Positions 2,506 to 29,357 of a stretch of 64,000 nt of DNA are shown here, piece after piece (the first letter of the stretch is position 1; every line of letters begins with the position of its first letter). The stretch lies in the NCBI RefSeq assembly GCF_021502575.1, contig NZ_JAKFGN010000002.1:1116001-1180000 (forward strand), written 5' to 3'. The notes beneath the pieces were generated by a model that was given only the letters and a program-made list of their open reading frames with translations, was not told the DNA's origin and ran no database searches. Both the position numbers and the translations under genes were made by a program. Origin of the DNA: Bradyrhizobium sp. G127. Its GTDB lineage: Bacteria > Pseudomonadota > Alphaproteobacteria > Rhizobiales > Xanthobacteraceae.

Positions 2506-4911
2506 TCAAACCGCCGTCTTGCGGTGCCGGATCGGCGCACCGAATGTCAGGCTCGCTGCAGCATCGATAATGGTGTTGGTGTCGAGACCGTAGTGGGCAT
2601 AGAGATCACCCACGGTGCCGGTCTGCCCGAACTTCTCGACGCCGAGCGCTTCAACGCGGTGACCCTGTACGCTGCCGAGCCACGCCAGCGTCGCTGGATG
2701 GCCGTCGATCACGGTAATGAGTCCGCAATCGCGCGGCATCGGCGATAGAAGCCGTTCGATATGGCTCGATTCACGCGGACCACCGTTGCGCCGAAGTTTA
2801 CGCGACGCAGTCCAGCCGGCATGCAGCCGGTCTGCGGAAGTAATGGCAAGCAAGCCGATGTCGCGGCGCGACTCGCCGAGCAGTCCCGTCGCCTCGATCG
2901 CTTCCGGCGCAACCGCGCCGGTATAGGCGATCACCAGTTCCGCATTGGGCCCCGGCTTACGCAGCCAATACGCTCCCGCTGCAATGTCGCCCGCAAGCCC
3001 GGGCGTCATCACACGCTGCGGTTGGTCGAGCGTCCGCGTCGAGAGACGCAAATAAACCGAGCCGCCATCCTCGTCGCGCTGCATCTGCTCGAACCCCCAG
3101 CGCATGATGACCGCGAGTTCGTCGACAAAAGCCGGCTCAAACGACGACAGCCCATCTTGCGCCATACCGATCAGCGGCGTGGCGATCGATTGATGCGCGC
3201 CGCCCTCAGGCGCCAGCGTGATGCCCGACGGTGTCGCCGCGACCATGAAGCGCGCGTCCTGATAGCAGGCGTAGTTCAGCGCATCGAGGCCGCGCTCGAT
3301 GAAGGGATCATACAGCGTCCCCACCGGCAGCAGCCGTTCGCCGTTGATGGAATGCGACAGCCCCAGCGCGGAGAGCATGAGGAAGAGGTTCATCTCCGCG
3401 ATGCCCAGTTCCATATGCTGGCCCTTCGGCGAATAATCCCATGCAAAAGTCGATGGAATTTTCTCCTTGCGATACAGATCCGCGTTCTCGGCCAATGCGA
3501 ACAGGCCGCGCCGATTGACCCACGCACCCAGATTGGTCGAAACCGTCACATCCGGCGAGGTGGTGACAATGCGCTCGGCCAGTTTCGTATCACCGCGCGC
3601 AAGTTCATTCAGGATCAGGCCGAAGCCCTGCTGGGTCGCCATACGCGGCGTCAGCGTCACGCCAAGCTGCGCAGGCACCTCGACCTTCGGCGCGTCCAGC
3701 CGCCGCGCGCCGTCGCGCGCGAAAGCTACGTTCTTCAAAAACGCCTCGATCCGCGCATGGTCCAGCGGCAATCCCTCCAGCCGGTCCCATTCATGACCGG
3801 GACGGATGTCTTGCGCGGTGCGGAAGGTTTCCATCTGCGCCACGGTCATCAAGCCGGCGTGATTGTCCTTGTGGCCCTGGAACGGCAGACCGACGCCTTT
3901 GATCGTATAGGCGATGAAGCACACCGGACGGTCATGATCGATTGCCTCGAACACCTCCAGCATACTGGCCATATCGTGACCGCCGAGATTCGACATCAGC
4001 GCCAGCAGTTCATCGTCGCTGCGCTTTTCGATCAGCTTCGTCACCGCGCCCTGATCGCCGATGTCGTCGAGCAGATGCCTGCGGAACGCCGCACCGCCTT
4101 GGAAACACAGGGCGGCATACATCTGGTTCGGGCAGCTATCGATCCACTTGCGCAGCGCCTCGCCGCCGGGCTCCGCAAACGCCGCCTGCATCAGCTTGCC
4201 GTATTTCACAATCACCACATCCCAGCCGAAATTGCGGAACATGGTCTCGAGCTTTTCCCACAAGCCTTCGCGGATCACGGCGTCGAGGCTCTGGCGGTTG
4301 TAATCGATCACCCACCATGTGTTGCGCAGGCCCTGCTTCCAGCCTTCCAGCAACGCCTCGAAGATATTGCCTTCGTCGAGTTCGGCGTCACCCACCAGCG
4401 CGATCATACGGCCTTCCGGTCTGTCCTTCATCCAGCCGTGCGCCTTCACATAATCCTGAACCAGCGACGAAAACAGCGTCTGCGCCACTCCGAGACCCAC
4501 CGAGCCGGTGGAGAAATCCACGTCGTCGATGTCCTTTGTGCGCGAGGGATAGGACTGCGCACCCTTGAAACCGCGGAAGTGTTCCAGCTTATCGCGGTTC
4601 TGTTGCCCGAGCAGATACTGGATCGCATGGAACACCGGACTGGCATGGGGCTTCACCGCCACGCGATCCTCGGGCTTCAGCACGCCGAAATACAGCGCTG
4701 ACATGATCGTCGCCAGCGACGCGCTTGAAGCCTGATGTCCGCCGACCTTAAGGCCGTCGGAATCCGGCCGGATATGGTTGGCGTGATGGATGGTCCACGA
4801 GGACAGCCACAAGACCTTGCGGGCCAGCGCGTTCAGAACTTCGAGACGAGACGGTTCGATGGGCTTGTTGGCAGGCATGGGACTCACCGCGGAGGCTGAT
4901 GCAGTGCTCAT
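2506..4911 (-). CDS. Homodimeric 2-oxoacid dehydrogenase E1 / transketolase-like thiamine-diphosphate enzyme
   Basis: 801 aa. The N-terminal TPP domain has the metal/diphosphate site GDAELDEGNIFEALLEGW followed by NTWWVIDYNRQSLD, the layout of AceE-type single-chain pyruvate dehydrogenase E1. The middle pyrimidine-binding domain includes GIAEMNLFLMLSALG and the C-terminus is transketolase-like. It is shorter than AceE (about 890 aa). No E2 or E3 gene is adjacent, so it is either an orphan E1 that uses a housekeeping E2/E3 or a transketolase-like enzyme. The divergent Lrp/AsnC gene at 5015 recalls the MdeB-MdeR arrangement for 2-oxobutyrate oxidation in Pseudomonas putida. That substrate is an inference by analogy only. 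Confidence 0.8.
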   Translation of the reverse strand: MSTASASAVSPMPANKPIEPSRLEVLNALARKVLWLSSWTIHHANHIRPDSDGLKVGGHQASSASLATIMSALYFGVLKPEDRVAVKPHASPVFHAIQYLLGQQNRDKLEHFRGFKGAQSYPSRTKDIDDVDFSTGSVGLGVAQTLFSSLVQDYVKAHGWMKDRPEGRMIALVGDAELDEGNIFEALLEGWKQGLRNTWWVIDYNRQSLDAVIREGLWEKLETMFRNFGWDVVIVKYGKLMQAAFAEPGGEALRKWIDSCPNQMYAALCFQGGAAFRRHLLDDIGDQGAVTKLIEKRSDDELLALMSNLGGHDMASMLEVFEAIDHDRPVCFIAYTIKGVGLPFQGHKDNHAGLMTVAQMETFRTAQDIRPGHEWDRLEGLPLDHARIEAFLKNVAFARDGARRLDAPKVEVPAQLGVTLTPRMATQQGFGLILNELARGDTKLAERIVTTSPDVTVSTNLGAWVNRRGLFALAENADLYRKEKIPSTFAWDYSPKGQHMELGIAEMNLFLMLSALGLSHSINGERLLPVGTLYDPFIERGLDALNYACYQDARFMVAATPSGITLAPEGGAHQSIATPLIGMAQDGLSSFEPAFVDELAVIMRWGFEQMQRDEDGGSVYLRLSTRTLDQPQRVMTPGLAGDIAAGAYWLRKPGPNAELVIAYTGAVAPEAIEATGLLGESRRDIGLLAITSADRLHAGWTASRKLRRNGGPRESSHIERLLSPMPRDCGLITVIDGHPATLAWLGSVQGHRVEALGVEKFGQTGTVGDLYAHYGLDTNTIIDAAASLTFGAPIRHRKTAV

Positions 4912-4968
4912 GCTAATCCTGAGCTGCCTTTGAAAAATCTCAAATCATATCGACGCGACCCAAAATAA

Positions 4969-4983
4969 TGGGATATCATCCCA
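4969..4983. promoter_or_regulatory. 15-bp dyad in the E1/Lrp divergent promoter, candidate Lrp-type operator
   Basis: TGGGAT at 4969-4974 and ATCCCA at 4978-4983 form 6-bp arms around a 3-nt centre, embedded in an AT-rich stretch unlike the surrounding GC-rich DNA. The 15-bp dyad size matches Lrp-family sites. It lies 58 bp from the E1 start and 32 bp from the regulator start, so it could serve both promoters. Confidence 0.5.
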
Positions 4984-5014
4984 ATAAATAGCTAAATGGT
5001 GATAATTTATACCA

Positions 5015-15564: not shown

Positions 15565-16161
15565 TCAGGCGACGCCGCGCTCTCCAACGCACTGAACTGC
15601 TCTCAACAAGTCGGTGGCGTGATCTTCCGCAGGCCCGATATTATTGATGACGATATCAGGCGCAGCGGTCACGACCGCTCGGCGCAGCCTGTCATCAAGC
15701 CGGCCATCGCTCGGACGCGCCCGCGCAGCAAGTCTCTCCGCAAGGACCTCCTCCGGAGCTGTCACCAAAACCACCGTGACATTGACATATGACCGCCGGG
15801 CAGATTCGACGATCGTGCGCGACACGTTCACAACCACGACATGACCCGCGCGAATATCATCGGCGATGGAATTCAATAGACCGTAACGCAGACCATGCGC
15901 CTCCCACTGGAAGGCGAAATCACCGTGCGCCAACATCTGGCCGAACTGGATCTGGCTGACCGCATCATTGTTCTCGTGAGACGACGCTTCCCGCGTCACC
16001 ACGCGTTGCGGGAAGACAACATTGCTGTCGCCTTTGCAGGCCGCCTGCACCAGTCCGATCAGCGTGTCCTTTCCCGCGCCGCTAGGACCCACGATGAGAA
16101 TCAGCCGACCCGGCCCGATCAGGTCCGTGCGATGGGCCGACTGAGTTGCAATGTCGGTCAT
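15565..16161 (-). CDS. phnN: Ribose 1,5-bisphosphate phosphokinase PhnN
   Basis: 198 aa from ATG 16161, which overlaps the phnM stop by 4 bp (ATGA); an ATG at 16185 is possible but less likely. The guanylate-kinase-like P-loop LILIVGPSGAGKDTLI sits near the N-terminus, followed by RVVTREASSHENNDAVS. It phosphorylates ribose 1,5-bisphosphate with ATP to give PRPP, the final step of the C-P lyase pathway. It is the last gene of the phnGHIJKLMN operon. Confidence 0.95.
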   Translation of the reverse strand: MTDIATQSAHRTDLIGPGRLILIVGPSGAGKDTLIGLVQAACKGDSNVVFPQRVVTREASSHENNDAVSQIQFGQMLAHGDFAFQWEAHGLRYGLLNSIADDIRAGHVVVVNVSRTIVESARRSYVNVTVVLVTAPEEVLAERLAARARPSDGRLDDRLRRAVVTAAPDIVINNIGPAEDHATDLLRAVQCVGERGVA

Positions 16162-17330
16162 GCGACGCGGTGCCCTTCGCGCCACACGCTGCGCACGACA
16201 GGCAGATCCCGGGCGAGGTGTACGCGGATCAGATCGGCGCGCTTGCCGGCAGCAATCTCTCCTCTGTCCGACAAACCAACGGCTTCCGCCGCCGTCTTGG
16301 TCACGGTCCGCACCGCAGCTGCCAGATCAATCGCCGGCACATGCTTCGGCAATTGCAGCGCGGCCATCAGCAGGCTGGACGGAATGTAATCAGACGACAT
16401 GATGTCCAGCAGACCTTCGCGGGCCATATCCACCGCAGCGATGTTTCCGGAATGCGAGCCGCCGCGCACGACGTTCGGTGCGCCCATCAGCACGTGAATC
16501 CCTGCCTGATGCAATCCGCGCGCCGCCTCCATCGTGGTCGGAAATTCGGCCACCGATACGCGATCGCGGATCGCATCCGCCACATTCTCCTCGGTGGTGT
16601 CGTCATGACTGGCGAGCGGAATATCGTAGCTGTGAGCCAACGCGACGATCTCGCGCATGTTGGCTTCGCCATAGGTCTTTTGATAGAAAAAGCGCCGCTC
16701 GAACATGACATCAAGTTGCGCGTCGGTGAGACCGCCGCTCTTGCCGCGATAGTAATCGCGCAGCTTGCCCTCGTCGCGAAACTGGCGCTGGCCCGGCGTG
16801 TGATCCATCAGCGACATCAGGCGAATATCGGGCCGACCTACAAGCTCCTTGGCCTCCTCGACAACGCTGGGCATCGGAATTTCGCAGCGTAGATGCAGGA
16901 AATGCTCGGCGCGGAGCAGCCCGCCATCGCGTGCCGTGGAGATCGCCCCCGCAAGAATCCCGGCCTGTCCGTCGACATCGTCGGCACCTTCTTCGCGCCA
17001 GACGCGCAACGAATCCAGTACGGTGGTGATACCGCTGGTCGCAAGCTGTCCGTCATAGGACACCACCGCAGCCACCGGGTCCCAGAGCACTTTTGGCCGC
17101 GGCACATAATGGGCTTCGAGGTGATCGGTATGCAGTTCGATCAGTCCCGGCATCAGCAGGTCGCCGCGCAAATCCTCGCCGCGCTCCGGCGCATCCCCCT
17201 CACCCACATCCGCGATCCTGCCATCCACAACCGCGACCCAGCCGCGCTCGATCACGCGGTCCTTCAGCACCACCTGCGCATTGCTGAAAACAGCGTCGTT
17301 TCGTTCAGAAGTCATATCGTCCCTTTTCAC
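16158..17330 (-). CDS. phnM: Alpha-D-ribose 1-methylphosphonate 5-triphosphate diphosphatase PhnM
   Basis: 390 aa amidohydrolase. Metal-site motif GLIELHTDHLEAHYVPRP near the N-terminus, then LMDHTPGQRQF, LASHDDTTEENV and GAPNVVRGGSHSGN, all typical of PhnM. It removes pyrophosphate from the 5-triphosphate intermediate in phosphonate breakdown. The start at 17330 overlaps the phnL stop (ATGA). A second PhnM-like protein is encoded at 27235. Confidence 0.97.
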   Translation of the reverse strand: MKRDDMTSERNDAVFSNAQVVLKDRVIERGWVAVVDGRIADVGEGDAPERGEDLRGDLLMPGLIELHTDHLEAHYVPRPKVLWDPVAAVVSYDGQLATSGITTVLDSLRVWREEGADDVDGQAGILAGAISTARDGGLLRAEHFLHLRCEIPMPSVVEEAKELVGRPDIRLMSLMDHTPGQRQFRDEGKLRDYYRGKSGGLTDAQLDVMFERRFFYQKTYGEANMREIVALAHSYDIPLASHDDTTEENVADAIRDRVSVAEFPTTMEAARGLHQAGIHVLMGAPNVVRGGSHSGNIAAVDMAREGLLDIMSSDYIPSSLLMAALQLPKHVPAIDLAAAVRTVTKTAAEAVGLSDRGEIAAGKRADLIRVHLARDLPVVRSVWREGHRVA

Positions 17331-18025
17331 GCCGCGGCCGCGAACGAGGTCACATCAATTGTGCGATCGGCAATCAGTTGGCGCACGTCGTCATCATGAA
17401 CGATGGCAATCATCGCCACATGGCGCTGTTTCTTCTCGGCAATCAGATCAACCACGATTTTGCGGTTAATGCCATCGAGCGATGCGGTCGGTTCATCCAG
17501 CAGCAGGATCGGCTTATCCGAGATGAATCCGCGCGCGATGTTAACGCGCTGCTGCTCGCCGCCGGAAAACGTCGACGGCGGCAGGGTCCATAGCCGCTCC
17601 GCGATATTGAGACGGCGCAGCAGCGCCCGTGCGCGCTCGCGCGCCTCGTCCCGCGCAATGCCATTAGCGATTAGCGGTTCGGCAACGACGTCGATCGTCG
17701 CAACGCGCGGCACGGCGCGTAGAAACTGGCTCACATAACCAATGGTTTGGCGACGAACGCGGAGAATATCACGCGGCGCGGCGCTGGCGATGTCCATCAC
17801 TCCGCCATTGTGACGCACAGTGATGCGTCCGGCGTCACAGCGGTAGTTCCCGAAGAGCATTTTCAGAATCGATGATTTCCCCGCGCCGGACGGGCCGGAC
17901 AGCACAACGCACTCGCCTGCATTCACCTGCATGGTGACGCCGGACACGACCGGCAGCCGCACCCCGTTCTGCAAGTGCATGGTGAAGGTTTTTGCAGCAC
18001 TGGAAATGTCGATCATTGGAGACAT
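17327..18025 (-). CDS. phnL: C-P lyase subunit PhnL (ABC ATPase-like)
   Basis: 232 aa. Walker A GPSGAGKSS, Q-loop YVSQFLRAVPRV, signature FSGGEQQRVNIARG and Walker B PILLLDEPTASLDG are all present. PhnL is an ABC-type ATPase needed with PhnI, PhnG and PhnH for attaching the phosphonate to ribose triphosphate; it is not a transporter. Its start is 8 nt downstream of the phnK stop. Confidence 0.96.
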   Translation of the reverse strand: MSPMIDISSAAKTFTMHLQNGVRLPVVSGVTMQVNAGECVVLSGPSGAGKSSILKMLFGNYRCDAGRITVRHNGGVMDIASAAPRDILRVRRQTIGYVSQFLRAVPRVATIDVVAEPLIANGIARDEARERARALLRRLNIAERLWTLPPSTFSGGEQQRVNIARGFISDKPILLLDEPTASLDGINRKIVVDLIAEKKQRHVAMIAIVHDDDVRQLIADRTIDVTSFAAAA

Positions 18026-18032
18026 ACTGTCC

Positions 18033-18818
18033 TCACGCGGGCAAAATCGAGGAAACGAGGAGTTGAGTATAAGGCTGGTGCGGGTCGTCGAGCACCTGAT
18101 CGGTAAGCCCCGTTTCGATCACCTTGCCGCCCTTCATCACCATCACTCGATGCGACAGCAGCCGCGCCACCGCGAGATCGTGGGTGACGATGATGACCGC
18201 GAGTCCGAGTTCGTTGACCAGCCCGCGCACCAGATCGAGCAGCCGCGCCTGTACGGAAACATCAAGGCCGCCCGTCGGCTCATCCATGAAGACAAGGCGC
18301 GGCTCGGTGACCAGGTTGCGCGCGATCTGCAATCGCTGCCGCATGCCCCCGGAATAGATTTTCGGCGCGTCGTCGATCCGATCAGGTGAAATCTCGACGC
18401 GCTCCAGCCATGAGGATGAGGTTTCGCGAATCTTGCCGTAATGGTTCCAGCCCACTGCCATCAGCCGCTCGCCGACATTGGCCCCGGCGGACACAGCCAT
18501 CCGCAGCCCCATCGCCGGATCCTGATGCACATAGCCCCAGTCCGTGCGGAACAGAAAACGCCGCTCTGCTTCGCCGAGCGCAGCGAGATCGCGGGTGACG
18601 CCATCGCGCATCCGATACGAAACGCGCCCCCTGCTCGGCTGCAATTGCGTCGAAAGCATTTGCAACAGCGTCGACTTGCCCGAGCCGGATTCGCCGACGA
18701 TGGCAAGCACCTCGCCCGGATAGAGTTCGAACGACACCTTGTCGCAGGCGAGTTGCCGCCCATAGGACTTGCTCAGGCCTTCGCAGACAAGCAGTGGCTG
18801 ATCGTCGTCGCGCATCAT
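18033..18818 (-). CDS. phnK: C-P lyase subunit PhnK (ABC ATPase-like)
   Basis: 261 aa from ATG 18818, chosen because it overlaps the phnJ stop as ATGA; the frame upstream is inside phnJ. Walker A GESGSGKST, YVHQDPAMGLRM, signature YSGGMRQRLQIARN and Walker B LVFMDEPTGGLD are intact. PhnK docks on the PhnGHIJ core complex and couples ATP hydrolysis to C-P lyase turnover. Confidence 0.96.
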   Translation of the reverse strand: MMRDDDQPLLVCEGLSKSYGRQLACDKVSFELYPGEVLAIVGESGSGKSTLLQMLSTQLQPSRGRVSYRMRDGVTRDLAALGEAERRFLFRTDWGYVHQDPAMGLRMAVSAGANVGERLMAVGWNHYGKIRETSSSWLERVEISPDRIDDAPKIYSGGMRQRLQIARNLVTEPRLVFMDEPTGGLDVSVQARLLDLVRGLVNELGLAVIIVTHDLAVARLLSHRVMVMKGGKVIETGLTDQVLDDPHQPYTQLLVSSILPA

Positions 18819-19690
18819 GTCACCTGATGGTCGGCGCCGAAGCCGGCGCCCTGATGGCCGTCCGCACGGCGGGTCTCGCAGTAATCCGTGTCGGAACACA
18901 CGAACATTCGCCCGCCCTTGTCGTCGACCACGACCTCATCGAGATAGGACGTATCCGATCCGCACAATGCGCAAGGTGCATCGAAGCGATAGATCTCGAA
19001 CGGATGATCCTCGAAATCGAGCGACGTCACTTTTGTATAGGGCGGGATCGCATAGATGCGCTTCTCACGCCCCGCACCAAACAGCTGCAGCGCCGCGCAA
19101 TCGTCCATCTTCGGGTTGTCGAATTTTGGCGTCGGCGATGGGTCCATTACATAGCGCTCATTGACCTTCACCGGATAAGCATAGGTCGTCGCGATGTGCC
19201 CGTGGCGCGCAATGTCCTCGTACAGCTTGACATGCATTAGCCCGTATTCACCAAGCGCATGCATGCGCCGGGTCTCGGTCTCGCGCGGCTCGAGGAACCG
19301 CAGCGGTTCCGGAATCGGTACCTGATAGACCAGCACCTGATTGTCGTTCAGCGCAGTCTCTGGAATGCGATGCCGTGTTTGAATCACGGTGGCGTCGGAC
19401 GTCACCGTGGTGGTTTTCACGCCAGCGGTCTTCTCGAAGAACTTGCGGATCGAGATCGCGTTGGTGGTGTCGTCGGAACCCTGGTCGATCACCTTCAGCG
19501 TGTCGTCCTGACCGAGGATCGCCGCCGTCACCTGCACGCCCCCAGTACCCCAGCCATAAGGCATCGGCATCTCGCGGCTCGCAAACGGCACCTGATAGCC
19601 GGGAATAGCGATGGCCTTCAAGATGGCACGGCGGATCATCCGCTTGGTCTGCTCGTCGAGATAGGCGAAATTGTAAACCGGCGCGTTCAT
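18815..19690 (-). CDS. phnJ: C-P lyase PhnJ, radical SAM enzyme
   Basis: 291 aa. The Cys set typical of PhnJ is complete: C240, C243 and C265 (iron-sulfur ligands, in PCALCGSD and FVCSDTDYC) and C271 (catalytic thiol). These correspond one-off to E. coli C241/C244/C266/C272. It cleaves the carbon-phosphorus bond of ribose 1-phosphonate 5-phosphate, releasing the alkane and 5-phosphoribosyl 1,2-cyclic phosphate. The start overlaps the phnI stop by 4 bp. Confidence 0.98.
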   Translation of the reverse strand: MNAPVYNFAYLDEQTKRMIRRAILKAIAIPGYQVPFASREMPMPYGWGTGGVQVTAAILGQDDTLKVIDQGSDDTTNAISIRKFFEKTAGVKTTTVTSDATVIQTRHRIPETALNDNQVLVYQVPIPEPLRFLEPRETETRRMHALGEYGLMHVKLYEDIARHGHIATTYAYPVKVNERYVMDPSPTPKFDNPKMDDCAALQLFGAGREKRIYAIPPYTKVTSLDFEDHPFEIYRFDAPCALCGSDTSYLDEVVVDDKGGRMFVCSDTDYCETRRADGHQGAGFGADHQVT

Positions 19691-20793
19691 TCGGCGGCCT
19701 CCGCCAGCGTTGCGTCGCTGTCCTTCGCGGCCTCGAATTCCTTGCGCAGCTTCCGCAGTAGTCCGAGTTCGGACTGGAAGTCGACATAGTGCGGCAGCTT
19801 CAGGTGCTCGACGAAGCCCGTGGCCTGCACATTGTCGGAATGCGACATCACGAATTCCTCGTCCTGTGCCGGCGAACCCGCTTCCTCGCCGAGTTCGCGC
19901 GCGCGCAGCGAGCGATCCACCAGCGCCATCGACATAGTCTTACGCTCGCTCTGGCCGAACGCCAGGCCATAGCCGCGCGTAAAGCACGGCGCTTCGGTGG
20001 CCGAGCCCTTAAACTGATTGACCATCTGACATTCCGTCAGCGTGATCGAACCCAGCGGAACAGCAAACCCAGCGTCTTCCGCGAAGAACTCGACCTCCAC
20101 TTCGCCGAAACGGATTTCACCGGCGAATGGATGAGTCCGGCCGAAACCACGCTGGGTCGAGTAGCCCAGCGCCAACAGAAATCCCTCGTCACCGCGCGCA
20201 AGGCTTTGCAGCCGCAGGTCGCGATCCGCCGGAAAGCTCAGCGGCTCGCGAGTCAGGTCGCCAACCGGCTGATCCGGATTTGCCTCGGGCGACGGCTCGA
20301 TCAGACCGTCCGCGCCGAGAATATCGGTGACGCGCGGCATCGACGCATCCCCGGCGATACCTTGCGTCGGCGCAGGGATCGCTGCGTCTTCCGTCAGCGA
20401 TGGATCGAGCAGGCGGTGAGTGTAGTCGAATGTCGGTCCGAGGATCTGCCCGCCCGGCACGTCCTTGAAGGTGGACGAGATGCGGCGGCGGATCTGCATG
20501 CTGCCGGTGTCGAGCGGTTCGGTCGCACCAAATCTTGGCAATGTGGCGCGGAATGCGCGCAGCAGAAAGATCGCCTCGATCAGATCACCCCTTGCCTGCT
20601 TGATCGCCAGCGCGGCCAAGTCGCGGTCATAGAGCGAACCTTCGATCATGACGCGATCGACCGCCAGCGTAAGCTGTCCGGAGATTTGCTTGAGCGTAAG
20701 ATCGGGGATTGTCGGATCGCCACGGCGTTCATGCGCCAGAAGTTGATGAGCATTTTCGATGGCGCGTTCGCCGCCCTTGACCGCAACATACAT
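19687..20793 (-). CDS. phnI: C-P lyase core subunit PhnI
   Basis: 368 aa, normal PhnI length. Begins MYVAVKGGERAIENAHQLLA, a family hallmark, and includes RGYGLAFGQSERKTMSMALV and a C-terminal LKLPHYVDFQSELGLL. PhnI is the nucleosidase that, with PhnG, PhnH and PhnL, exchanges the adenine of ATP for a phosphonate. It sits in the phnGHIJ core order expected for the C-P lyase complex. Confidence 0.97.
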   Translation of the reverse strand: MYVAVKGGERAIENAHQLLAHERRGDPTIPDLTLKQISGQLTLAVDRVMIEGSLYDRDLAALAIKQARGDLIEAIFLLRAFRATLPRFGATEPLDTGSMQIRRRISSTFKDVPGGQILGPTFDYTHRLLDPSLTEDAAIPAPTQGIAGDASMPRVTDILGADGLIEPSPEANPDQPVGDLTREPLSFPADRDLRLQSLARGDEGFLLALGYSTQRGFGRTHPFAGEIRFGEVEVEFFAEDAGFAVPLGSITLTECQMVNQFKGSATEAPCFTRGYGLAFGQSERKTMSMALVDRSLRARELGEEAGSPAQDEEFVMSHSDNVQATGFVEHLKLPHYVDFQSELGLLRKLRKEFEAAKDSDATLAEAAE

Positions 20794-20796
20794 GGC

Positions 20797-21411
20797 TCAG
20801 ACCTTCCCTGCGGAAACCTGCGTGCTGCGCGGCAACGCCACGACGTCGTGGCCGCAGACCATCAACAAATCGACCCCGCGCGGAAACAGCGCGCGATTGG
20901 CCTTCATGCGTTCGACAAAATCGGACGGCAGCCCCCCCGCGTGCAACGACGATGTGCCGCGAATGCCCGGACCGCTGAGGATCAGTTCCGGCCCTTCGGA
21001 GAAGGTATCGACCTGGACCACCAGCGTCGCCGAGCGATCCGGATATTCCGGCGTTCCAAGCGCGAAGGATTCGAAGTCGGGCAACGCTGCACCATTGTGA
21101 ATTAAAGCAAAGGCAGCAATTGAGGCGTCATCTGTCAGCGGCGCACCAGTCTGGAAGCGCAGCCATGATGCGATGTCGGTTTCAGCTTCCAACCGCTGGC
21201 CGAGCCAGACTGGCGTATCGTGGTCGAACAGGGTCAGCGCGATAGCGGCCGTAGCAGGCACCAATAGCGGCGGCGCGTTCACACCATCGGTGATTGTCTG
21301 CACCGAACCGGGACGCGCCAGCGCATCCATCACGCAACGAAACACCGCTTGAGACGATGATACCGGCCTGGCGAATCCCGTTCCTGCGTCCAGCTTTGCA
21401 TGAAGCGCCAT
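20797..21411 (-). CDS. phnH: C-P lyase core subunit PhnH
   Basis: 204 aa. The N-terminal SQAVFRCVMDALARPGSVQT and the later LIHNGAALPDFESFALGTPE and LSGPGIRGTSSLHAGGLP are typical PhnH segments. PhnH forms a heteromeric core with PhnG, PhnI and PhnJ. It starts 2 nt after the phnG stop and ends 3 nt before phnI, so the genes are tightly coupled. Confidence 0.96.
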   Translation of the reverse strand: MALHAKLDAGTGFARPVSSSQAVFRCVMDALARPGSVQTITDGVNAPPLLVPATAAIALTLFDHDTPVWLGQRLEAETDIASWLRFQTGAPLTDDASIAAFALIHNGAALPDFESFALGTPEYPDRSATLVVQVDTFSEGPELILSGPGIRGTSSLHAGGLPSDFVERMKANRALFPRGVDLLMVCGHDVVALPRSTQVSAGKV

Positions 21412-21413
21412 GG

Positions 21414-21875
21414 TTAGTTCTCGCCTCTTACCAAGGTGTAGAAATCGACCCGTGTCGCGGCGGTTTCCGCTGCCTGTTCGGCGAGCGCCGCGTCTCGTTC
21501 CCTACGCAGTGGGGCAACAACAGCCTGTTCGATCTCGCTCTTGAAGCTCTCGCTCTGGATCAGCGCATCGCACAGTGCGATCAGCCTTGCCTTCTCGCCG
21601 TCGCGTCCCAGCACATAGCCGAAGCCGACCTCGCCTGAGACCAGCCGCACTGCCGCGCGCGAAACACTGGCTTCACCAAGATTGAACGGCGCGCCATCAC
21701 CGCCGATCCGGCCGCGCACCATAACGAGGCCCCTCTCCGGCTGGCGAACCACCTGATGTGCAGGAATCTCAAGTGCGTCGAGACAGGCCGCGATCCGTTC
21801 CGTCGGAGTGTGCGCAAGCACTGACATGGCGTCGCGGCGCAGACTCTGCTCGGGGCCTATCTGCGGTTGGATCAT
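21414..21875 (-). CDS. phnG: C-P lyase core subunit PhnG
   Basis: 153 aa from ATG 21875, preferred over the in-frame GTG at 21881 because AAGG lies 5 nt before the ATG. The motif ERGLVMVRGRIGGDGAPFNL followed by GEASVSRAAVRL and GFGYVLGRD is diagnostic of PhnG. First gene of the phnGHIJKLMN operon; a PhnF-type palindrome and a Pho-box-like element lie directly upstream. Confidence 0.95.
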   Translation of the reverse strand: MIQPQIGPEQSLRRDAMSVLAHTPTERIAACLDALEIPAHQVVRQPERGLVMVRGRIGGDGAPFNLGEASVSRAAVRLVSGEVGFGYVLGRDGEKARLIALCDALIQSESFKSEIEQAVVAPLRRERDAALAEQAAETAATRVDFYTLVRGEN

Positions 21876-21893
21876 CTGCACCTTGCCGAATCT

Positions 21894-21951: not shown

Positions 21952-22005
21952 CGGGATGATTTTCATAGAACCGGGCATCGGGTGCCGCCGTGTGCGGGCG
22001 CGAGC

Positions 22006-22737
22006 ATGAGTCTGTCTGAAGACAGCGGCTCCGGCGTCGCCCTGTGGCGGCGCGTGGCGGATTCCATCGAGCAGTCCATTGCCAACGGAACCTATCCGCA
22101 CGACACGCGCCTTCCCGGCGAAATGGAGATCGCGGAGATTCACCGCGTCAACCGCCATACGGTGCGCCGCGCGCTGGCGGCGCTGGCCGAGCGCGGACTG
22201 GTACGCGCCGAACGCGGCAGCGGCACCTATGTGGAAGCGCCGCGAATCTCCTACCCCCTTCGCTCGCGCACGCGCTTTTCCGAAATCGTCGGCGCCGGCG
22301 GCCAGGAAGCAGACGGCAAGTTGCTGCATTCGTCGATCGAACCCGCGTCGCAGGATCTGGCGAAGCGGCTAGGTGTCAAGACCGGGGCATCGCTGCTGCG
22401 GATCGACGCACTGCGCATGGCGGACAGGATTCCGATTTGCGTTGGCACCACATGGATGGAAGCAGCCCGCTTCCCTGATGGTGGACACGTCTATGAAAGG
22501 AAGCGCTCGACAACCAAACTGCTGACGCACTTCGGTGTGCGCGACTACCGCCGAGAATGGACCAACGTTACCGCAGCCATCGTGGATGCCGCCGATGCAG
22601 CCCGGCTCGATCTCGCTCTCGGTCGTCCGGTGCTGGTGGTCGACAGCCTTGATACGGAGCCGGACGGCAAGCCGCTGCTCACCACCCGCGCACGCTTCGC
22701 TGCGGAACGGGTGCAGTTCGTAATCGAAAACCAATAG
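22006..22737 (+). CDS. phnF: PhnF, GntR/HutC-type regulator of phosphonate genes
   Basis: 243 aa from ATG 22006; an in-frame ATG at 21982 gives 8 extra residues. The N-terminal GntR winged helix is ALWRRVADSIEQSIANGTYP, then EMEIAEIHRVNRHTVRRAL and GSGTYVE. Residues ~90-240 form a UTRA effector domain (LRIDALRMADRIPICVGTTW). It is divergent from phnG and convergent with phnE. It likely represses the phn operon until phosphate or a phosphonate signal changes, through the palindrome at 21894. Confidence 0.93.
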   Translation: MSLSEDSGSGVALWRRVADSIEQSIANGTYPHDTRLPGEMEIAEIHRVNRHTVRRALAALAERGLVRAERGSGTYVEAPRISYPLRSRTRFSEIVGAGGQEADGKLLHSSIEPASQDLAKRLGVKTGASLLRIDALRMADRIPICVGTTWMEAARFPDGGHVYERKRSTTKLLTHFGVRDYRREWTNVTAAIVDAADAARLDLALGRPVLVVDSLDTEPDGKPLLTTRARFAAERVQFVIENQ

Positions 22738-22743
22738 CTGAAA

Positions 22744-23595
22744 TCAGTGCCGCGCTTCGCCGGCGCGACCGATGATGGCAAAACGCAGCCGGCTCGAAAT
22801 GAAATCAATGACCGCGACCGCGATCAGGATCATCAGTACCAACGTTGAGACCTTCTGCCATTCCAGTACACGGATCTGCTCGGCCAGTTGCAGGCCGATG
22901 CCACCGGCCCCGACGATGCCGATGATGGTGGCCGAACGGGTATTGGATTCGATGTAGTATAGTATCTGTCCCGCCAGCACCGGCAGCACCTGCGGCATCA
23001 GGCCGAAGCGGATCTCGTGCAGCTTGCTGCCGCCCGCCGCACGGATGCCCTCAACCTGCTTGTGGTCGCCGCCCTCGATCGCTTCCGAAAACAACTTGCC
23101 GAATGCACCGAAATCCGATGTGGCGATGGCCAGCACACCCGCGAAGGGTCCGAGGCCCACCACATTGATCCAGACCAGCGCCCAGATCAGCGTATCGATC
23201 CCGCGGATCGAATCGAGGAACCGCCGCACCGGAAAGCGCAGGAAGATCGAGGGAATGATGTTTTTCGCCGCCAGCAGACTGAACGGCAGCGCCAGCAACG
23301 CGCCGAGCAACGTGCCGAGAAACGCGATCGAGAGCGTCTCCCCCATGGCGTGAAGATATGTCGGCAGTGACGAGCCTGGGTCCGGCGGGATCATTAGCAG
23401 AATGAACCAGCCGAGTTGCCGTGTGCCGACGATCAGGCGCTCGAGCGAGAAGTCCAGATACCAGCAACCGAACACGAACAGCGCAAGCGCTACAGAGGCG
23501 GCTGCGAAAGCCTTTCGTCGCGCCGAGCGCGAGCCGTGAAAAAGCTCCGGATACTTCGCAACAATGACTGAGGCATTCTGAACCGCCGGGGTCAC
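22744..23595 (-). CDS. phnE: Phosphonate ABC transporter permease PhnE (second copy)
   Basis: 283 aa inner-membrane permease. It starts at a GTG (23595) that overlaps the preceding permease stop. Membrane segments are evident (ALALFVFGCWYLDFSLERLI), and the EAA-type loop is EAIEGGDHKQVEGIRAAGGS. The C-terminal IESNTRSATIIGIVGAGGIG is the PhnE signature. Two consecutive PhnE-type permeases probably form a heterodimer for phosphonate import. Confidence 0.94.
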   Translation of the reverse strand: MTPAVQNASVIVAKYPELFHGSRSARRKAFAAASVALALFVFGCWYLDFSLERLIVGTRQLGWFILLMIPPDPGSSLPTYLHAMGETLSIAFLGTLLGALLALPFSLLAAKNIIPSIFLRFPVRRFLDSIRGIDTLIWALVWINVVGLGPFAGVLAIATSDFGAFGKLFSEAIEGGDHKQVEGIRAAGGSKLHEIRFGLMPQVLPVLAGQILYYIESNTRSATIIGIVGAGGIGLQLAEQIRVLEWQKVSTLVLMILIAVAVIDFISSRLRFAIIGRAGEARH

Positions 23596-24476
23596 GAGCG
23601 CCTCCCTGGTCCGAACAGCCGCCCGCGCAGCCAGCCGGTGCAGACGTCAATGAGGAAGATCGTTATGATGATCATCAGCAGGATGGCGCTAACGTCGGAA
23701 TAAAAGAACTTGCGCACCGCGACCACGAGTTCTTGCCCGATACCGCCAGCGCCGACGAAGCCCATCACCGAAGCCTCGCGCACATTGATCTCGAACCGCA
23801 GCAGCGAATAACTCGCGAATCCCGGCATCACCTGCGGAAGTACCGCGAAGCGCATGCTCGACATCCAGCTTGCACCGGTGGAGCGGACGCCTTCCAGCGG
23901 CTTCATATCGATGTTCTCGACTTGCTCCGAATAGAGCTTTCCGAGCGCGCCGACCGAATGGATCGCGATGGCAAGAACGCCCGCCATCGGTCCCAGCCCG
24001 AAGGCGATCACAAAGATCAAGGCAAACACGATACCGGGAACGGTGCGGCAGAATTCCAGAAACCGGCGCACGACAAACCGCGCCACCGGATGCGGCGACA
24101 CATTGGCGGCGGCGAAGAAATTCAGGCAGAACGCGCCAACCGCGCCGATGCCGGTACCCACGTAGCTGAGCAGCAGCGTTTCCGCCAGCAGCTTCAGCCA
24201 TTTCTGCCAGCCCCAGAACCATTCGGCGGGATCGGTCCAAACCCGCTTGCCGGTATCGAGATTGAGAATGCGGTCGAAATAGCCGACAAAGTTGCCGATC
24301 TTCTCGACGAAGGTTTTCGGCGCTACCTCCGCACCGAGTCCCGCGACGATCAGCAGCCCCACAAAGACGATGAGCCCCGCGATGAACCGCAACCGCTTGC
24401 GGGCGACGGTTGCATCATACGCAGCTTCGAGTGCTGCGATCTGCTGGGGCGGGTAGCTGGAAAGGCTGATCGTCAA
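23592..24476 (-). CDS. phnE: Phosphonate ABC transporter permease PhnE (first copy)
   Basis: 294 aa permease; the start appears to be a TTG at 24476 without a clear ribosome site, since an in-frame stop lies just upstream. EQVENIDMKPLEGVRSTGAS is the coupling loop and FEINVREASVMGFVGAGGIG the conserved C-terminal PhnE motif. The weak start and the upstream hairpin at 24507-24532 fit lower expression than phnD. Confidence 0.93.
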   Translation of the reverse strand: MTISLSSYPPQQIAALEAAYDATVARKRLRFIAGLIVFVGLLIVAGLGAEVAPKTFVEKIGNFVGYFDRILNLDTGKRVWTDPAEWFWGWQKWLKLLAETLLLSYVGTGIGAVGAFCLNFFAAANVSPHPVARFVVRRFLEFCRTVPGIVFALIFVIAFGLGPMAGVLAIAIHSVGALGKLYSEQVENIDMKPLEGVRSTGASWMSSMRFAVLPQVMPGFASYSLLRFEINVREASVMGFVGAGGIGQELVVAVRKFFYSDVSAILLMIIITIFLIDVCTGWLRGRLFGPGRRS

Positions 24477-24541: not shown

Positions 24542-25480
24542 TCAGGAGGCCTTCTTCTTGCGAAGATGATCGACGAACTTGATCAGATCGATCATGCCGT
24601 CCCAGTCCTTGGTGGTCGCCGGATTGAAGTCCTTCTTCTGTCCGTCCGACAGTTTGTCGAAGGCGGCCTTCTCCTTGGTGGGGGTCTCAAAGAATGCCTT
24701 TTCAATCGCCGTCTTAAGATCGGCCGGCATGTCCCCAAGAACGGCATAGGGTCCGTTCAGGATCGGTGCAGACTTGTGAACGATACGGAAGTCTTCCTTT
24801 TTCATCGGCGAGCCATCGGCGTTCTTCAGCATGCCCTTGGTCAGCATCTGTGCCAGCGTCGAGTCATTCTCGGCGGTCCACTGATTGGCCGCGACATCGA
24901 CGGTGCCCTGGGAGAGCGCCAGCATCGCGTTCTCGTGGCTGCCAGTAAACACCACCTTGCGGAAATAGGATTCGGCGTCCGAAATCTGCATTTTGTTCAG
25001 CTCGAAGCGCGGCACGTTGTTGCCGGAGGTCGAGTTCGGATCAACGAGGCCGAGGTTTTTGCTCTTCAGATCATCGATCGTCTTGTAGGGGCTTTTCGCC
25101 AGCACGAAGAACATCGAATAATAGCCGGTGCTGCCGTCGATATTGCGATCGTTGGCGAACGCCTCAGTGTTAACGCCGGTCATACGGGCGCGGGCAAACG
25201 ATGCCGAGCCGTAGCTTGCAATATGAATTGTACCGGAGCGTTGGCCTTCGATCACAGCGGCGTAGTCGTTGGCGATGCGCAGGTTAACCTTCACGCCGAG
25301 TTCCTTGCTCAGATAGGCGATGAACGGCGCCCAACGCTCGGTCACGCCCGAGGCGTTCTCGGCAGGAACCACCGCGAAGGTGAGCTCTGGATATTTTGCT
25401 ATCCAGTCCTGAGCCGAGGCGGCGGTGGCGCTGAAGGCAAGTGCGGCGACGCCGGCAATGACGGTGCGACGATTGATCAT
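24542..25480 (-). CDS. phnD: Phosphonate ABC transporter periplasmic binding protein PhnD
   Basis: 312 aa from ATG 25480, supported by GAGG upstream; the frame is open 20 codons further. A Sec signal is visible (MINRRTVIAGVAALAFSATA, cleavage near ASAQD). The mature part has FAVVPAENASGVTERWAPFI, GLVDPNSTSGNNVPRFELNK and NQWTAENDSTLAQM, typical of PhnD. It captures phosphonates in the periplasm. Confidence 0.96.
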   Translation of the reverse strand: MINRRTVIAGVAALAFSATAASAQDWIAKYPELTFAVVPAENASGVTERWAPFIAYLSKELGVKVNLRIANDYAAVIEGQRSGTIHIASYGSASFARARMTGVNTEAFANDRNIDGSTGYYSMFFVLAKSPYKTIDDLKSKNLGLVDPNSTSGNNVPRFELNKMQISDAESYFRKVVFTGSHENAMLALSQGTVDVAANQWTAENDSTLAQMLTKGMLKNADGSPMKKEDFRIVHKSAPILNGPYAVLGDMPADLKTAIEKAFFETPTKEKAAFDKLSDGQKKDFNPATTKDWDGMIDLIKFVDHLRKKKAS

Positions 25481-25523
25481 GATGTCCTCTCGGGTGAGTG
25501 GTCGTGTCTTTATGGAAACAGAA

Positions 25524-26336
25524 CTATGCGACGGCAGCATTTCCGAGCACGGGTGCCAGTTCGCCAGGTACGAAGTCCGGTGTCTCGTCCATCACCTCGC
25601 CGGCTTCGAGATCGTAAAGCTCACGCGCGATGCTGTCGGTCAGCGAGGCCGGCGCGCCGTCGAACACGATGCGGCCCGCCGACATGCCGATCAGGCGATC
25701 GCAATAGGTCCGCGCCAGATCGAGCGAATGCAGATTGCAGATCACGGTGATGCCGAAATGCTTGTTGATACGCAGCAGCGCATCCATCACGATCCGGGTG
25801 TTGCGAGGGTCGAGCGACGCGATCGGCTCGTCGGCCAATATGATGTCGGGCTGCTGGACCAGCGCGCGGGCGATCGCCACGCGCTGCTGCTGTCCGCCCG
25901 AGAGCTGATCCGCGCGCTGCGCCGCCATGGGCATCATGTCGAACTGTTCCAACGCGGAGATAGCGATGGCCTTGTCGTCATGCGGCCAGAGTTGCAGCAG
26001 CGAGCGCCACAGCGGCACGCCGGCCAGACGCCCCATCAGGACGTTGGTCAGCACATCGAGGCGCCCGACCAGATTGAACTGCTGGAAGATCATCGCCGAC
26101 CGGGCACGCCATCGGCGCAAATCGTGGCCTTGCAGCGCAGTGACGTCGACGCCCTCGAACAGGACGCGCCCGCCGGTCGGGCTTTCCAGCCGGTTGATCA
26201 TGCGTAGCAGTGTGGATTTTCCGGCGCCCGAGCGGCCGATCACGCCGACGAAACGTCCGGGCTCAACCGAGAAGGACGCATTGTCGACAGCCGTCTTCGC
26301 CCCGAACCGGCACGTCAGTCCGTCCACCACAAGCAT
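25524..26336 (-). CDS. phnC: Phosphonate ABC transporter ATPase PhnC
   Basis: 270 aa. Walker [11 protein letters not shown]-loop [20 protein letters not shown], signature [19 protein letters not shown] and Walker [13 protein letters not shown] are present. It energises phosphonate import by PhnD/PhnE1E2. It is the first gene of phnCDE1E2, and a Pho-box-like element lies 47 bp upstream. Confidence 0.96.
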
Positions 26337-26457: not shown

Positions 26458-26486
26458 TTGTCATCCAGTCTTCATGATGCCGTCAT
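26458..26486 (+). promoter_or_regulatory. Pho-box-like triple repeat upstream of the hexapeptide transferase operon
   Basis: TTGTCAT (26458), TCTTCAT (26469) and CCGTCAT (26480) recur at exact 11-bp spacing on the plus strand, the geometry of multi-unit Pho boxes. It lies 82 bp upstream of the start at 26568. Together with the minus-strand element at 26383 it lets one intergenic region serve both phosphonate operons. Confidence 0.65.
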
Positions 26487-26567: not shown

Positions 26568-27200
26568 ATGGCCGGTAAAGCCCTATCCATTCAACCACTC
26601 ATCGATCCAACCGCAAGGCTGCATGACAGCCACGCGGGAGCCTATTGCGAGATTGGCGCGCGAACCGTTCTGCACGAAGTCACGATGGGGGATTACTCTT
26701 ACGTTGTGAACGACAGCCAGATTGCCTACGCCACCATCGGAAAATTTTGCTCCATTGCGGCAATGACCCGGATCAATCCCGGCAATCACCCGATGCATCG
26801 CGCCGCGCAGGCGCATTTTTCCTATCGCACCAGCGCCTATTTTCCAGGTGAAGCCGACGATACGGACTTCTTCGCCTGGCGACGCAGTCATCATGTGACG
26901 TTCGGCCATGACGTCTGGATCGGTCACGGCGCTATCGTGCTGTCCGGCCGGAATATCGGCACCGGTGCCGTGGTCGCGGCCGGTGCGGTCGTCACCAAGG
27001 ACGTGCCGGACTACACCGTTGTTGGCGGAAACCCGGCGCGGCCGATCCGGCGGCGGTTTCCGGAACATGTCTCCGAGCAGTTGATCGCGCTGGCGTGGTG
27101 GGACTGGAGCCATGACCGGCTCCGCACCGCGCTGGCGGATTTCCGGAATCTGCCGGTCGAAGCCTTTGTCGAGAAATATAACAGCACCCTGGCCAGCTAA
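26568..27200 (+). CDS. Phosphonate-locus hexapeptide-repeat transferase
   Basis: 210 aa left-handed beta-helix protein: hexapeptide-like repeats in [20 protein letters not shown] and in [20 protein letters not shown], then [20 protein letters not shown]. The catalytic-type His/Asn region ([20 protein letters not shown]) resembles phn-linked acetyltransferases. It probably acylates a phosphonate or aminoalkylphosphonate before C-P lyase action; the substrate is not visible. First gene of the plus-strand phn unit under the Pho-box-like repeats. Confidence 0.88.
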
Positions 27201-27234: not shown

Positions 27235-28434
27235 ATGAGACTCATGCCAGACATTTTGATCGAAGGCGGCCGGACATTGATTGGAGACGCACTTGAGGAT
27301 GCGTCCATTCACATCGCGCATGGGACAATTACCGAAGTGTCTTCGCGAGGCAGCGCGGCCTCATTGCGCCTCGACAGCCATGGCCTGATCGCCCTGCCCG
27401 GCATCGTCGACATGCACGGCGATGCCTTCGAGCGCCAGATGATGCCGCGCCCCGGCGTCGACTTCCCGGTCGATGTCGCTCTTGTCGACAGCGATCGCCA
27501 GGCCATCGCCAACGGCATCACGACGGTCTTTCACGCCACAACATGGTCATGGGAGCCCGGCCTGCGCGGTACCGAGAATGCGCATCGCCTGCTCGATGCC
27601 ATCGAAGGTATGCGGCCCCAACTGGCCGCCGACACGCGCTTTCATCTCCGGCAGGAGACTTTCAACCTCGACGCCGAGCCGACCATCGCCGAGTGGCTGA
27701 CCGCGGGCCGCGTCGATTTGCTCGCCTTCAACGATCACATGCATATGACGGCCGCGTCGATGAATAATCCCAAGAAGCGCGCCCGCATGGTGGAGCGCTC
27801 CGGTCTTGGCGAAACTGAGTTCGATCTGCTGGTCGAACGGGTGATGACCGGTGCGGACAAGGTTCCTGCATCCATCGCGCGGCTTGCCTCCATCGGCCGC
27901 GACAACGGCGTGCCGCTGCTGTCCCACGACGATGAATCGCCGGATCAGCGCACCCACTTCCGGTCGCTCGGTATCGCCGTCGCGGAATTTCCGATCAATG
28001 AGGCGACTGCACGCGCGGCGGTCGAAGGCGGCGACTTCACGGTGTTCGGCGCGCCAAACGTCGTGCGCGGCGGCAGCCACACCGGATGGATCAGCGCCGC
28101 GGAGATGGTGAGCAAGGGCCTGTGCTCGATTTTGGCCTCGGACTACTACTATCCAGCGCCTCTGCTCGCAGCGTTTAGGCTTGCTGCCGACGATATCCTG
28201 CCGCTGCCGCAGGCTTGGGCTCTGGTATCGCGCGCACCAGCTGCGGCGACCGAACTGCACGATCGCGGCCAGATTGCAGCCGGAAAACGCGCGGACATTT
28301 TATTGGTCGACGCAGGCGAACCACTGAGACCCCGTGTCGTCGCCGTGATCGCCGGCGGACGCATGGTCCATCTCACGGAGCCGCAGCGCATTTTATCGAC
28401 CTCTGCCGCCGAACGCAGGGTTGAACCCGCCTGA
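27235..28434 (+). CDS. phnM: Second PhnM-type amidohydrolase
   Basis: 399 aa from ATG 27235 (MRLMPDILIEGG); 27244 is an alternative. The family motifs PGIVDMHGDAFERQMMPRPG, LLSHDDESPD and FGAPNVVRGGSHTGWISAAE are intact, including the metal-binding His and Asp of HGD, but the first motif differs from HTDH of the other PhnM (16158). It may act on a different ribosyl-phosphonate intermediate or back up the first copy. It lies 34 bp after the hexapeptide transferase and 23 bp before the 2H-type gene. Confidence 0.93.
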   Translation: MRLMPDILIEGGRTLIGDALEDASIHIAHGTITEVSSRGSAASLRLDSHGLIALPGIVDMHGDAFERQMMPRPGVDFPVDVALVDSDRQAIANGITTVFHATTWSWEPGLRGTENAHRLLDAIEGMRPQLAADTRFHLRQETFNLDAEPTIAEWLTAGRVDLLAFNDHMHMTAASMNNPKKRARMVERSGLGETEFDLLVERVMTGADKVPASIARLASIGRDNGVPLLSHDDESPDQRTHFRSLGIAVAEFPINEATARAAVEGGDFTVFGAPNVVRGGSHTGWISAAEMVSKGLCSILASDYYYPAPLLAAFRLAADDILPLPQAWALVSRAPAAATELHDRGQIAAGKRADILLVDAGEPLRPRVVAVIAGGRMVHLTEPQRILSTSAAERRVEPA

Positions 28435-28457: not shown

Positions 28458-29162
28458 ATGTCGCAATACCCCCGCTACGCCGTCTATTTCGTCCCGTCAG
28501 CCGATAGCACTCTCTATCGGTTCGGCGCGGGTCTGATCGGGTACGATGCCTATTCGGGGCAACCCCTTCCTTTCTCCGAAGGCATTGAAAGCGAGATTGA
28601 CGGCTGGAAACAGTTCACCGCCGATCCGCGAAAATATGGTTTTCATGCCACGTTGAAAGCCCCCATCTCTCTCGCCCCCGGCAAGACCGAAGACGAACTC
28701 GTGGCAGCGATGAGCGATTTCGCGCAGACGCCGCGAGCTATCCCGGTAATTGCGCCAACCGTTCGCGGCATTAGCAGCTTCGTCGCTATTACGCCGAATG
28801 ATTTCTGCGCCGAGTTGCAGAAGCTGGCCGACGATTGCGTCATTGCCTTCGACCAGTTCCGTGCGCCGCTGACAACAGCGGATCGCGAGCGCCGCAACGT
28901 GTCGGCGCTCAACAAACGGCAGGTCGCCTATCTGGATCGCTGGGGCTATCCTTACGTGCTAGAGGAATTCCGCTTTCACATGACGCTGGCCGGATCTCTT
29001 CCCGCGGAACGGCGAGCGCCGGTGCTGGATCTTCTTCAGCAGCGCTTTGGCGCGCTCGAACTAAAATCGATATCGATCGACCGGCTGGCATTGCTGCGCC
29101 AGAACGACGCAAGTTCCGGCTTCACCCTCATTTCGCTTTGGCCGTTGCGCGCAACCGTCTAA
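28458..29162 (+). CDS. DUF1045 phosphonate-locus protein, 2H-phosphoesterase-like
   Basis: 234 aa. Two H-x-T-L motifs are visible: KYGFHATLKAP (H63) and FRFHMTLAGS (H174), the paired catalytic signature of the 2H phosphoesterase superfamily, whose members often open 1,2- or 2,3-cyclic phosphates. DUF1045 proteins are usually found in phn loci. No phnP is present in this window, so it may open 5-phosphoribosyl 1,2-cyclic phosphate in its place. The fold is evident; the substrate is inferred. Confidence 0.85.
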   Translation: MSQYPRYAVYFVPSADSTLYRFGAGLIGYDAYSGQPLPFSEGIESEIDGWKQFTADPRKYGFHATLKAPISLAPGKTEDELVAAMSDFAQTPRAIPVIAPTVRGISSFVAITPNDFCAELQKLADDCVIAFDQFRAPLTTADRERRNVSALNKRQVAYLDRWGYPYVLEEFRFHMTLAGSLPAERRAPVLDLLQQRFGALELKSISIDRLALLRQNDASSGFTLISLWPLRATV

Positions 29163-29328: not shown

Positions 29329-29357
29329 AATCATCCGATGTTTAACATCGGATGATT
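29329..29357. promoter_or_regulatory. Perfect 29-bp palindrome, candidate autoregulatory operator
   Basis: Arms AATCATCCGATGTT (29329-29342) and AACATCGGATGATT (29344-29357) are exact complements around one T. FadR-type GntR proteins bind such AT-ATC-GAT palindromes. It covers a possible ATG at 29352, which argues that translation of the regulator starts further downstream. Confidence 0.75.

Follow-up and report, generated by a model that had tools for sequence, protein, structure and literature searches.

We conclude that the DUF1045 protein encoded in the window, the 64,000-nucleotide stretch of Bradyrhizobium sp. G127 DNA analysed here, is most probably (we would put it at about 86%) the phosphoribosyl 1,2-cyclic phosphate phosphodiesterase of the C-P lyase pathway, a replacement for PhnP that is not homologous to it. 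The observations behind this reading are the sequence motifs of the protein, its fold, its gene context, the absence of PhnP, the mutual exclusion of the two proteins across genomes and a conserved repeat upstream of the gene. The hypothesis itself had already appeared in print between 2009 and 2014, with the gene called rcsF or DUF1045, and the window gene is one more member of this family (DUF1045 or TIGR03223, the 'rcsF' of phn clusters), with an identical proposed role (PMC3840354, PMC8235418, PMC10574752). Our contribution is a larger co-occurrence count, the finding that this genome hides no phnP, a fold predicted with confidence and a Pho-box-like signal that is conserved among relatives.

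According to a review, Podzelinska (2009) described a 2H gene, rcsF, in 16 phn operons without phnP (PMC10574752). Martinez (2013) considered rcsF 'probably analogous to phnP' (PMC3840354), and a paper on Aminobacter credits Hove-Jensen (2014) with the suggestion that DUF1045 may be a phosphoribosyl cyclic phosphodiesterase (PMC8235418). A fosmid cluster that lacks phnP but carries 'rcsF' allows an E. coli delta-phnHIJKLMNOP strain to grow on methylphosphonate (Martinez 2013, PMC3840354). This result bears on DUF1045 because E. coli phnP mutants build up ribosyl 1,2-cyclic phosphate and are unable to draw usable phosphorus from phosphonate (PMC3463581). From the matching phnM-DUF1045-phnN-phnL gene order in the genomes of the same class that we surveyed, we infer that the fosmid 'rcsF' would be a DUF1045 gene. 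No assay of a DUF1045 protein was found in the open-access full-text literature searched.

The open reading frame starts with ATG and encodes 234 amino acids. Its product matches the DUF1045 profile (PF06299) with 182.5-183.5 bits against a cut-off of 24.3, and with 257.4 bits it passes the curated cut-off of 248.95 for TIGR03223 ('putative phosphonate metabolism protein'), which makes it a member of that family. The paired HxTL motifs that a preliminary description of this DNA had placed at H63 and H174 are real: the protein carries H63-A-T65-L and H174-M-T176-L, one in each half, and thus has the two HxT/S motifs of the 2H phosphoesterase superfamily. Across an alignment of 70 diverse homologues neither histidine varies (70/70); the position of T65 holds Thr in 69 sequences, and that of T176 holds Thr in 65 and Ser in another 4. 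The other invariant residues are R6, G28, P69, G163 and L177, while K67, R135 and R146 are near-invariant.

The same description held that the locus has the full set of C-P lyase genes and phnN but lacks phnP. The presence of these genes is borne out by profile matches (Table 1), and no phnP lies in the window. The genes phnGHIJKLM and phnN occupy the minus strand between 21881 and 15565. In a separate plus-strand unit, DUF1045 comes third, behind the acyltransferase gene and a second phnM-like gene, and 23 bp separate the end of the latter from the DUF1045 start. The model match of this second phnM-like gene starts at about 27244, within a frame that opens at 27112, and a GntR/FCD regulator gene starts at 29352, after DUF1045. 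A matching arrangement of the locus is found in Afipia, Bradyrhizobium and relatives, with the acyltransferase gene undetected in some of them. Compared with other DUF1045/TIGR03223 proteins nothing essential differs, but the gene here forms a unit with the acyltransferase gene and phnM2 that diverges from the transporter genes, whereas in most other lineages DUF1045 is adjacent to canonical phnM and/or phnN.

Table 1. Genes and signals of the phn locus, with positions counted from the first nucleotide of the window.
Feature	Position	Strand	Basis or remark
phnN, ribose 1,5-bisphosphokinase	15565..16185	-	
phnM, canonical copy	16158..17330	-	
phnL	17327..18025	-	
phnK	18033..18899	-	
phnJ, C-P lyase	18815..19690	-	
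phnI	19687..20793	-	
phnH	20797..21411	-	
phnG	21414..21881	-	
phnF regulator	21982..22737	+	
phnE permease, second copy	22744..23595	-	
phnE permease	23592..24476	-	
phnD, phosphonate-binding protein	24542..25540	-	
phnC-position ABC ATPase	25524..26336	-	Pfam ABC_tran; position and similarity to phnC of relatives
Triple Pho-box-like direct repeat	26458..26486	+	upstream of the acyltransferase-phnM2-DUF1045 unit
phn-associated hexapeptide-repeat acyltransferase (TIGR03308)	26568..27200	+	profile match; first gene of the plus-strand unit
Second phnM-like gene (NF011985, alpha-D-ribose 1-methylphosphonate 5-triphosphate diphosphatase family)	27244..28434	+	profile match
DUF1045/TIGR03223 2H phosphoesterase-like protein, candidate phosphoribosyl 1,2-cyclic phosphate phosphodiesterase	28458..29162	+	ORF, profile matches, motifs, fold

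The region between the phnC-position gene and the acyltransferase gene holds a Pho-box-like repeat, TTGTCAT-ccag-TCTTCAT-gatg-CCGTCAT, which would place the DUF1045 unit in the Pho regulon. Its three units follow each other with an 11-bp step and are in register on the plus strand in the Afipia and Bradyrhizobium relatives. In a shuffle control the repeat score was reached in 0 of 200 cases, both for the window and for most relatives. The repeat could serve the divergent transporter genes too. A scan of the whole window with the two-unit Pho-box consensus gave 6 matches compared with 3.8 expected, which is not above chance. Phosphorus stress in a marine roseobacter is accompanied by a rise of a 'putative C-P lyase DUF1045' protein along with PhnI, PhnJ, PhnL and PhnM (PMC10132767).

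We can also compare the distribution of DUF1045 with that of PhnP. Our first sample comprised 398 Pseudomonadota genomes, 83 with PhnJ and 315 without. DUF1045 is present in 71 of the 398, namely in 62 of the PhnJ-positive and 9 of the PhnJ-negative genomes, and it is found in every one of the 58 PhnJ-positive Alphaproteobacteria. PhnP was searched for in 79 of the 83 PhnJ-positive genomes (four Alphaproteobacteria were left out): 58 have DUF1045 only, 19 have PhnP only, none has both and 2 have neither. For 13 further genomes, added from the order of G246 and G328, the corresponding numbers are 10, 2, 0 and 1, the last with a truncated contig. The total for 92 PhnJ-positive Pseudomonadota is then 68 with DUF1045 only, 21 with PhnP only and 3 with neither. 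The preliminary description had suggested a survey of whether DUF1045 and phnP exclude each other, and 0 of the 92 genomes carry both, with DUF1045 occurring in C-P lyase genomes that lack PhnP.

One order holds both solutions, with DUF1045 in G246, G249, G255, G328 and ten more genomes, and PhnP in G366, G456 and G525. On the PhnJ tree, the labels DUF1045 and PhnP switch just twice, and an independent-pair sign test on this tree had too few pairs to reach significance. Because the exclusivity is phylogenetically clumped, with only these two switches, we regard it, complete as it is, as strong circumstantial evidence and make no claim of significance. In the mapped PhnP clusters, phnP comes last in phnM-phnN-phnP, and in the mapped DUF1045 clusters the gene usually adjoins phnM and/or phnN; some Rhizobiaceae have a separate DUF1045-phnM-phnN operon, apart from phnGHIJKL. 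In the sampled PhnJ-positive Alphaproteobacteria and in most PhnJ-positive members of one further order, DUF1045 is present and PhnP occurs in none of those tested, so that the ring-opening step in these groups rests on DUF1045 as the candidate enzyme.

The family is phosphonate-linked mostly, but not strictly: among 159 distinct DUF1045 proteins, 121 have phnJ in the surrounding stretch examined and 22 have other phn genes, which leaves 16 with none that was scored. One of these 16 (L215) nevertheless adjoins phnCDEE, and several are in PhnJ-positive genomes. We considered whether such orphans form a separate clade, which would weaken the phosphonate link, and rejected this, since in a tree of 83 DUF1045 representatives the phn-less proteins are nested at several points among the rest. 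Seven strong DUF1045 matches are in genomes without PhnJ.

Individual copies show some further variation. In seven stretches from genomes without PhnJ (L120-L126), DUF1045 still lies beside phnM or phnN in two (L120 and L126). Second copies distant from phn genes are seen in L131 and L132. Three phn-unlinked second copies from one genus (L131:7818-8483, the L206:6990 region and the L207:6825 region) have kept both histidines but lost both motif threonines (HGV and HMP for HxT), as if catalytically changed. A Rhizobiaceae-like genome (L139) has two DUF1045 copies, at 4300-5000 and 17400-18100, each split over two frames and probably broken; an intact copy is present in L144. In records of S. 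meliloti pSymB, DUF1045 matches two places.

The surroundings of the gene also bear on what it might do other than replace PhnP. One alternative, which we find unlikely, is that DUF1045 is not a simple PhnP substitute. In this reading DUF1045, the acyltransferase and the second PhnM-like protein would jointly process a separate ribosyl intermediate that is acylated or dephosphorylated, and members in genomes without PhnJ would act on some other ribose 1,2-cyclic phosphate that arises outside phosphonate metabolism. A related alternative is that the three proteins form a side branch, which would clear ribosyl phosphonates or a cyclic phosphate (dephosphorylated ribosyl 1,2-cyclic phosphate or some other) and not the main-line intermediate. 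The shared unit of the window, and the existence of DUF1045 genes outside phn loci or in PhnJ-less genomes, speak for such a branch. However, DUF1045 adjoins canonical phnM and/or phnN in most other lineages, the orphan copies nest among the phn-linked ones, and the main-line step would be left without an enzyme, which makes this explanation very unlikely.

The host genome measures 4.76 Mb and is 99.99% complete. The preliminary description had named a phnP elsewhere in the genome, needed for growth on methylphosphonate, as one finding that would speak against its proposal. On the first half of this condition, a profile search of the whole genome found none above the TIGR03307 cut-off of 272 bits. 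The best match, at 42-44 bits, is a 265-aa MBL protein at C2:143938-144711, encoded behind metG and tatD in a housekeeping operon, and the second best is PqqB; a hidden phnP was rejected on these grounds. The DUF1045 locus is not among the PhnP-model matches of the genome, and the fold of its product matches 2H enzymes. It is conceivable that the MBL protein is a distant PhnP homologue that performs the PRcP step, with DUF1045 having some other function: it belongs to the same fold class as PhnP, its weak alignment to the PhnP model is full-length, and it could act in principle. Against this stand not only its score and its housekeeping operon, but also comparable sub-cut-off matches in 17 of 20 PhnJ-negative Alphaproteobacteria, which means that such matches do not track phosphonate use. 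Conversely, many PhnJ-positive Rhizobiaceae-like genomes have no match to the PhnP model at E 1e-6, and the phnP-less fosmid cluster is functional in E. coli without phnP. We therefore regard the MBL protein as a highly improbable candidate for this step.

A further enzyme that could be sought is PhnPP, the PHP-family cyclic phosphodiesterase of Eggerthella. Like DUF1045, it is not homologous to PhnP; it acts on the cyclic phosphate that PhnP opens, but its fold is PHP where that of DUF1045 is 2H. The genome has two PHP-family matches, each a single match, inside frames of 1185 and 1132 aa, both of a size typical of DNA polymerase III alpha subunits. Since PHP matches occur only in frames of more than 1100 aa, a small PhnPP-like protein was rejected as absent.

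The predicted structure agrees with the motifs. An AlphaFold2 model of the DUF1045 protein, built from the 70-sequence alignment, has a mean pLDDT of 97.3 and a pTM of 0.92, and shows the 2H fold. The best Foldseek match in the PDB is B. subtilis YjcG (2d4g, E 1.6e-7), followed by the Arabidopsis ADP-ribose 1'',2''-cyclic phosphate phosphodiesterase (CPDase; 1jh6, E 2.8e-6), which is the nearest structural match with a known substrate. The top matches are mostly 2H proteins, with drCPDase, Usb1 and LigT among the lower ones. The earlier suggestion, drawn from the letters of the sequence, that the protein resembles enzymes opening cyclic phosphates, including that of ADP-ribose, is borne out by motifs and fold. 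A profile search of PDB sequences with DUF1045 gave no significant match, though in the non-significant alignment to YjcG both HxT motifs are in register. YjcG, a 2H protein and putative 2'-5' RNA ligase, has the closest fold at 14% identity, and we know of no link between it and phosphonate genes. The Arabidopsis CPDase (PDB 1fsi, 1jh6, 1jh7) shares with DUF1045 the 2H fold and the paired HxT/S motifs, but the two have only about 14-15% identity and the CPDase substrate has ADP at O5, not phosphate. That substrate carries the identical ribose 1,2-cyclic phosphate ring, and the enzyme opens it to the 1-phosphate, the direction needed to feed PhnN.

That DUF1045 is instead an RNA 2'-5' ligase or LigT-like RNA end-processing enzyme, located in the phn locus by chance, is hardly credible: it shares the superfamily and has Pfam matches, but these lie below the cut-offs for membership in the LigT/ThpR group (26.0 against 27 for 2_5_RNA_ligase2, PF13563, and 19.8 against 23.3 for LigT_PEase, PF02834), the one other 2H-type protein found in the genome (C1:46060-46446) is a better match to the 2'-5' RNA ligase family, LigT structures come after both YjcG and the Arabidopsis CPDase in the structure search, and DUF1045 presence follows phnJ.

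For DUF1045 as the PhnP replacement, we infer the reaction, its direction of opening, its independence of metal and the role of the basic residues as follows. H63 and H174 of the 2H fold would serve as general base and general acid, while the two HxT threonines, T65 and T176, would hold the phosphate. Water would then break the O2-P bond of the ring with no metal involved, and PhnN would turn the resulting ribose 1,5-bisphosphate into PRPP. Among the conserved residues, the basic R6, K67, R135 and R146 are candidates to hold the 5-phosphate. PhnP (TIGR03307, E. coli), by comparison, is a metal enzyme of metallo-beta-lactamase fold, unrelated to the two-histidine DUF1045, and the two have in common the proposed reaction and the position in the pathway.

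The C-P lyase frees methane from methylphosphonate and gives bacteria of soil and sea access to phosphonates, glyphosate among them. If the role of DUF1045 is proven, the pathway will be complete and the annotation can be corrected; as it stands, profile-based pipelines may mistake unrelated MBL proteins for 'phnP' or overlook the ring-opening step.

Some clusters have neither gene: two of family f49, to which several PhnP genomes belong, and one that is truncated. A third solution, or a loss, must therefore exist. L135 and L136 each hold a C-P lyase cluster with phnN in a genome that has neither phnP nor DUF1045, and nothing convincing as a substitute enzyme was seen among the open frames near these clusters. 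Two plasmid clusters consist of phnGHIJKL without phnM, phnN, phnP or DUF1045, with PhnK and PhnL assigned by position: one is on a conjugative plasmid of Rhizobium sp. ZX09, beside iron ABC transporter genes (L262), the other on a mobilizable plasmid of Proteus mirabilis (L264). On an Arthrobacter plasmid (L263), a gene of the inositol monophosphatase family follows phnM where PhnN and PhnP would be expected, and is a candidate replacement. In Halorientalis (L261), the genes after phnM encode a sugar phosphate isomerase/epimerase and a HAD hydrolase, which are candidate replacements for PhnN and PhnP.
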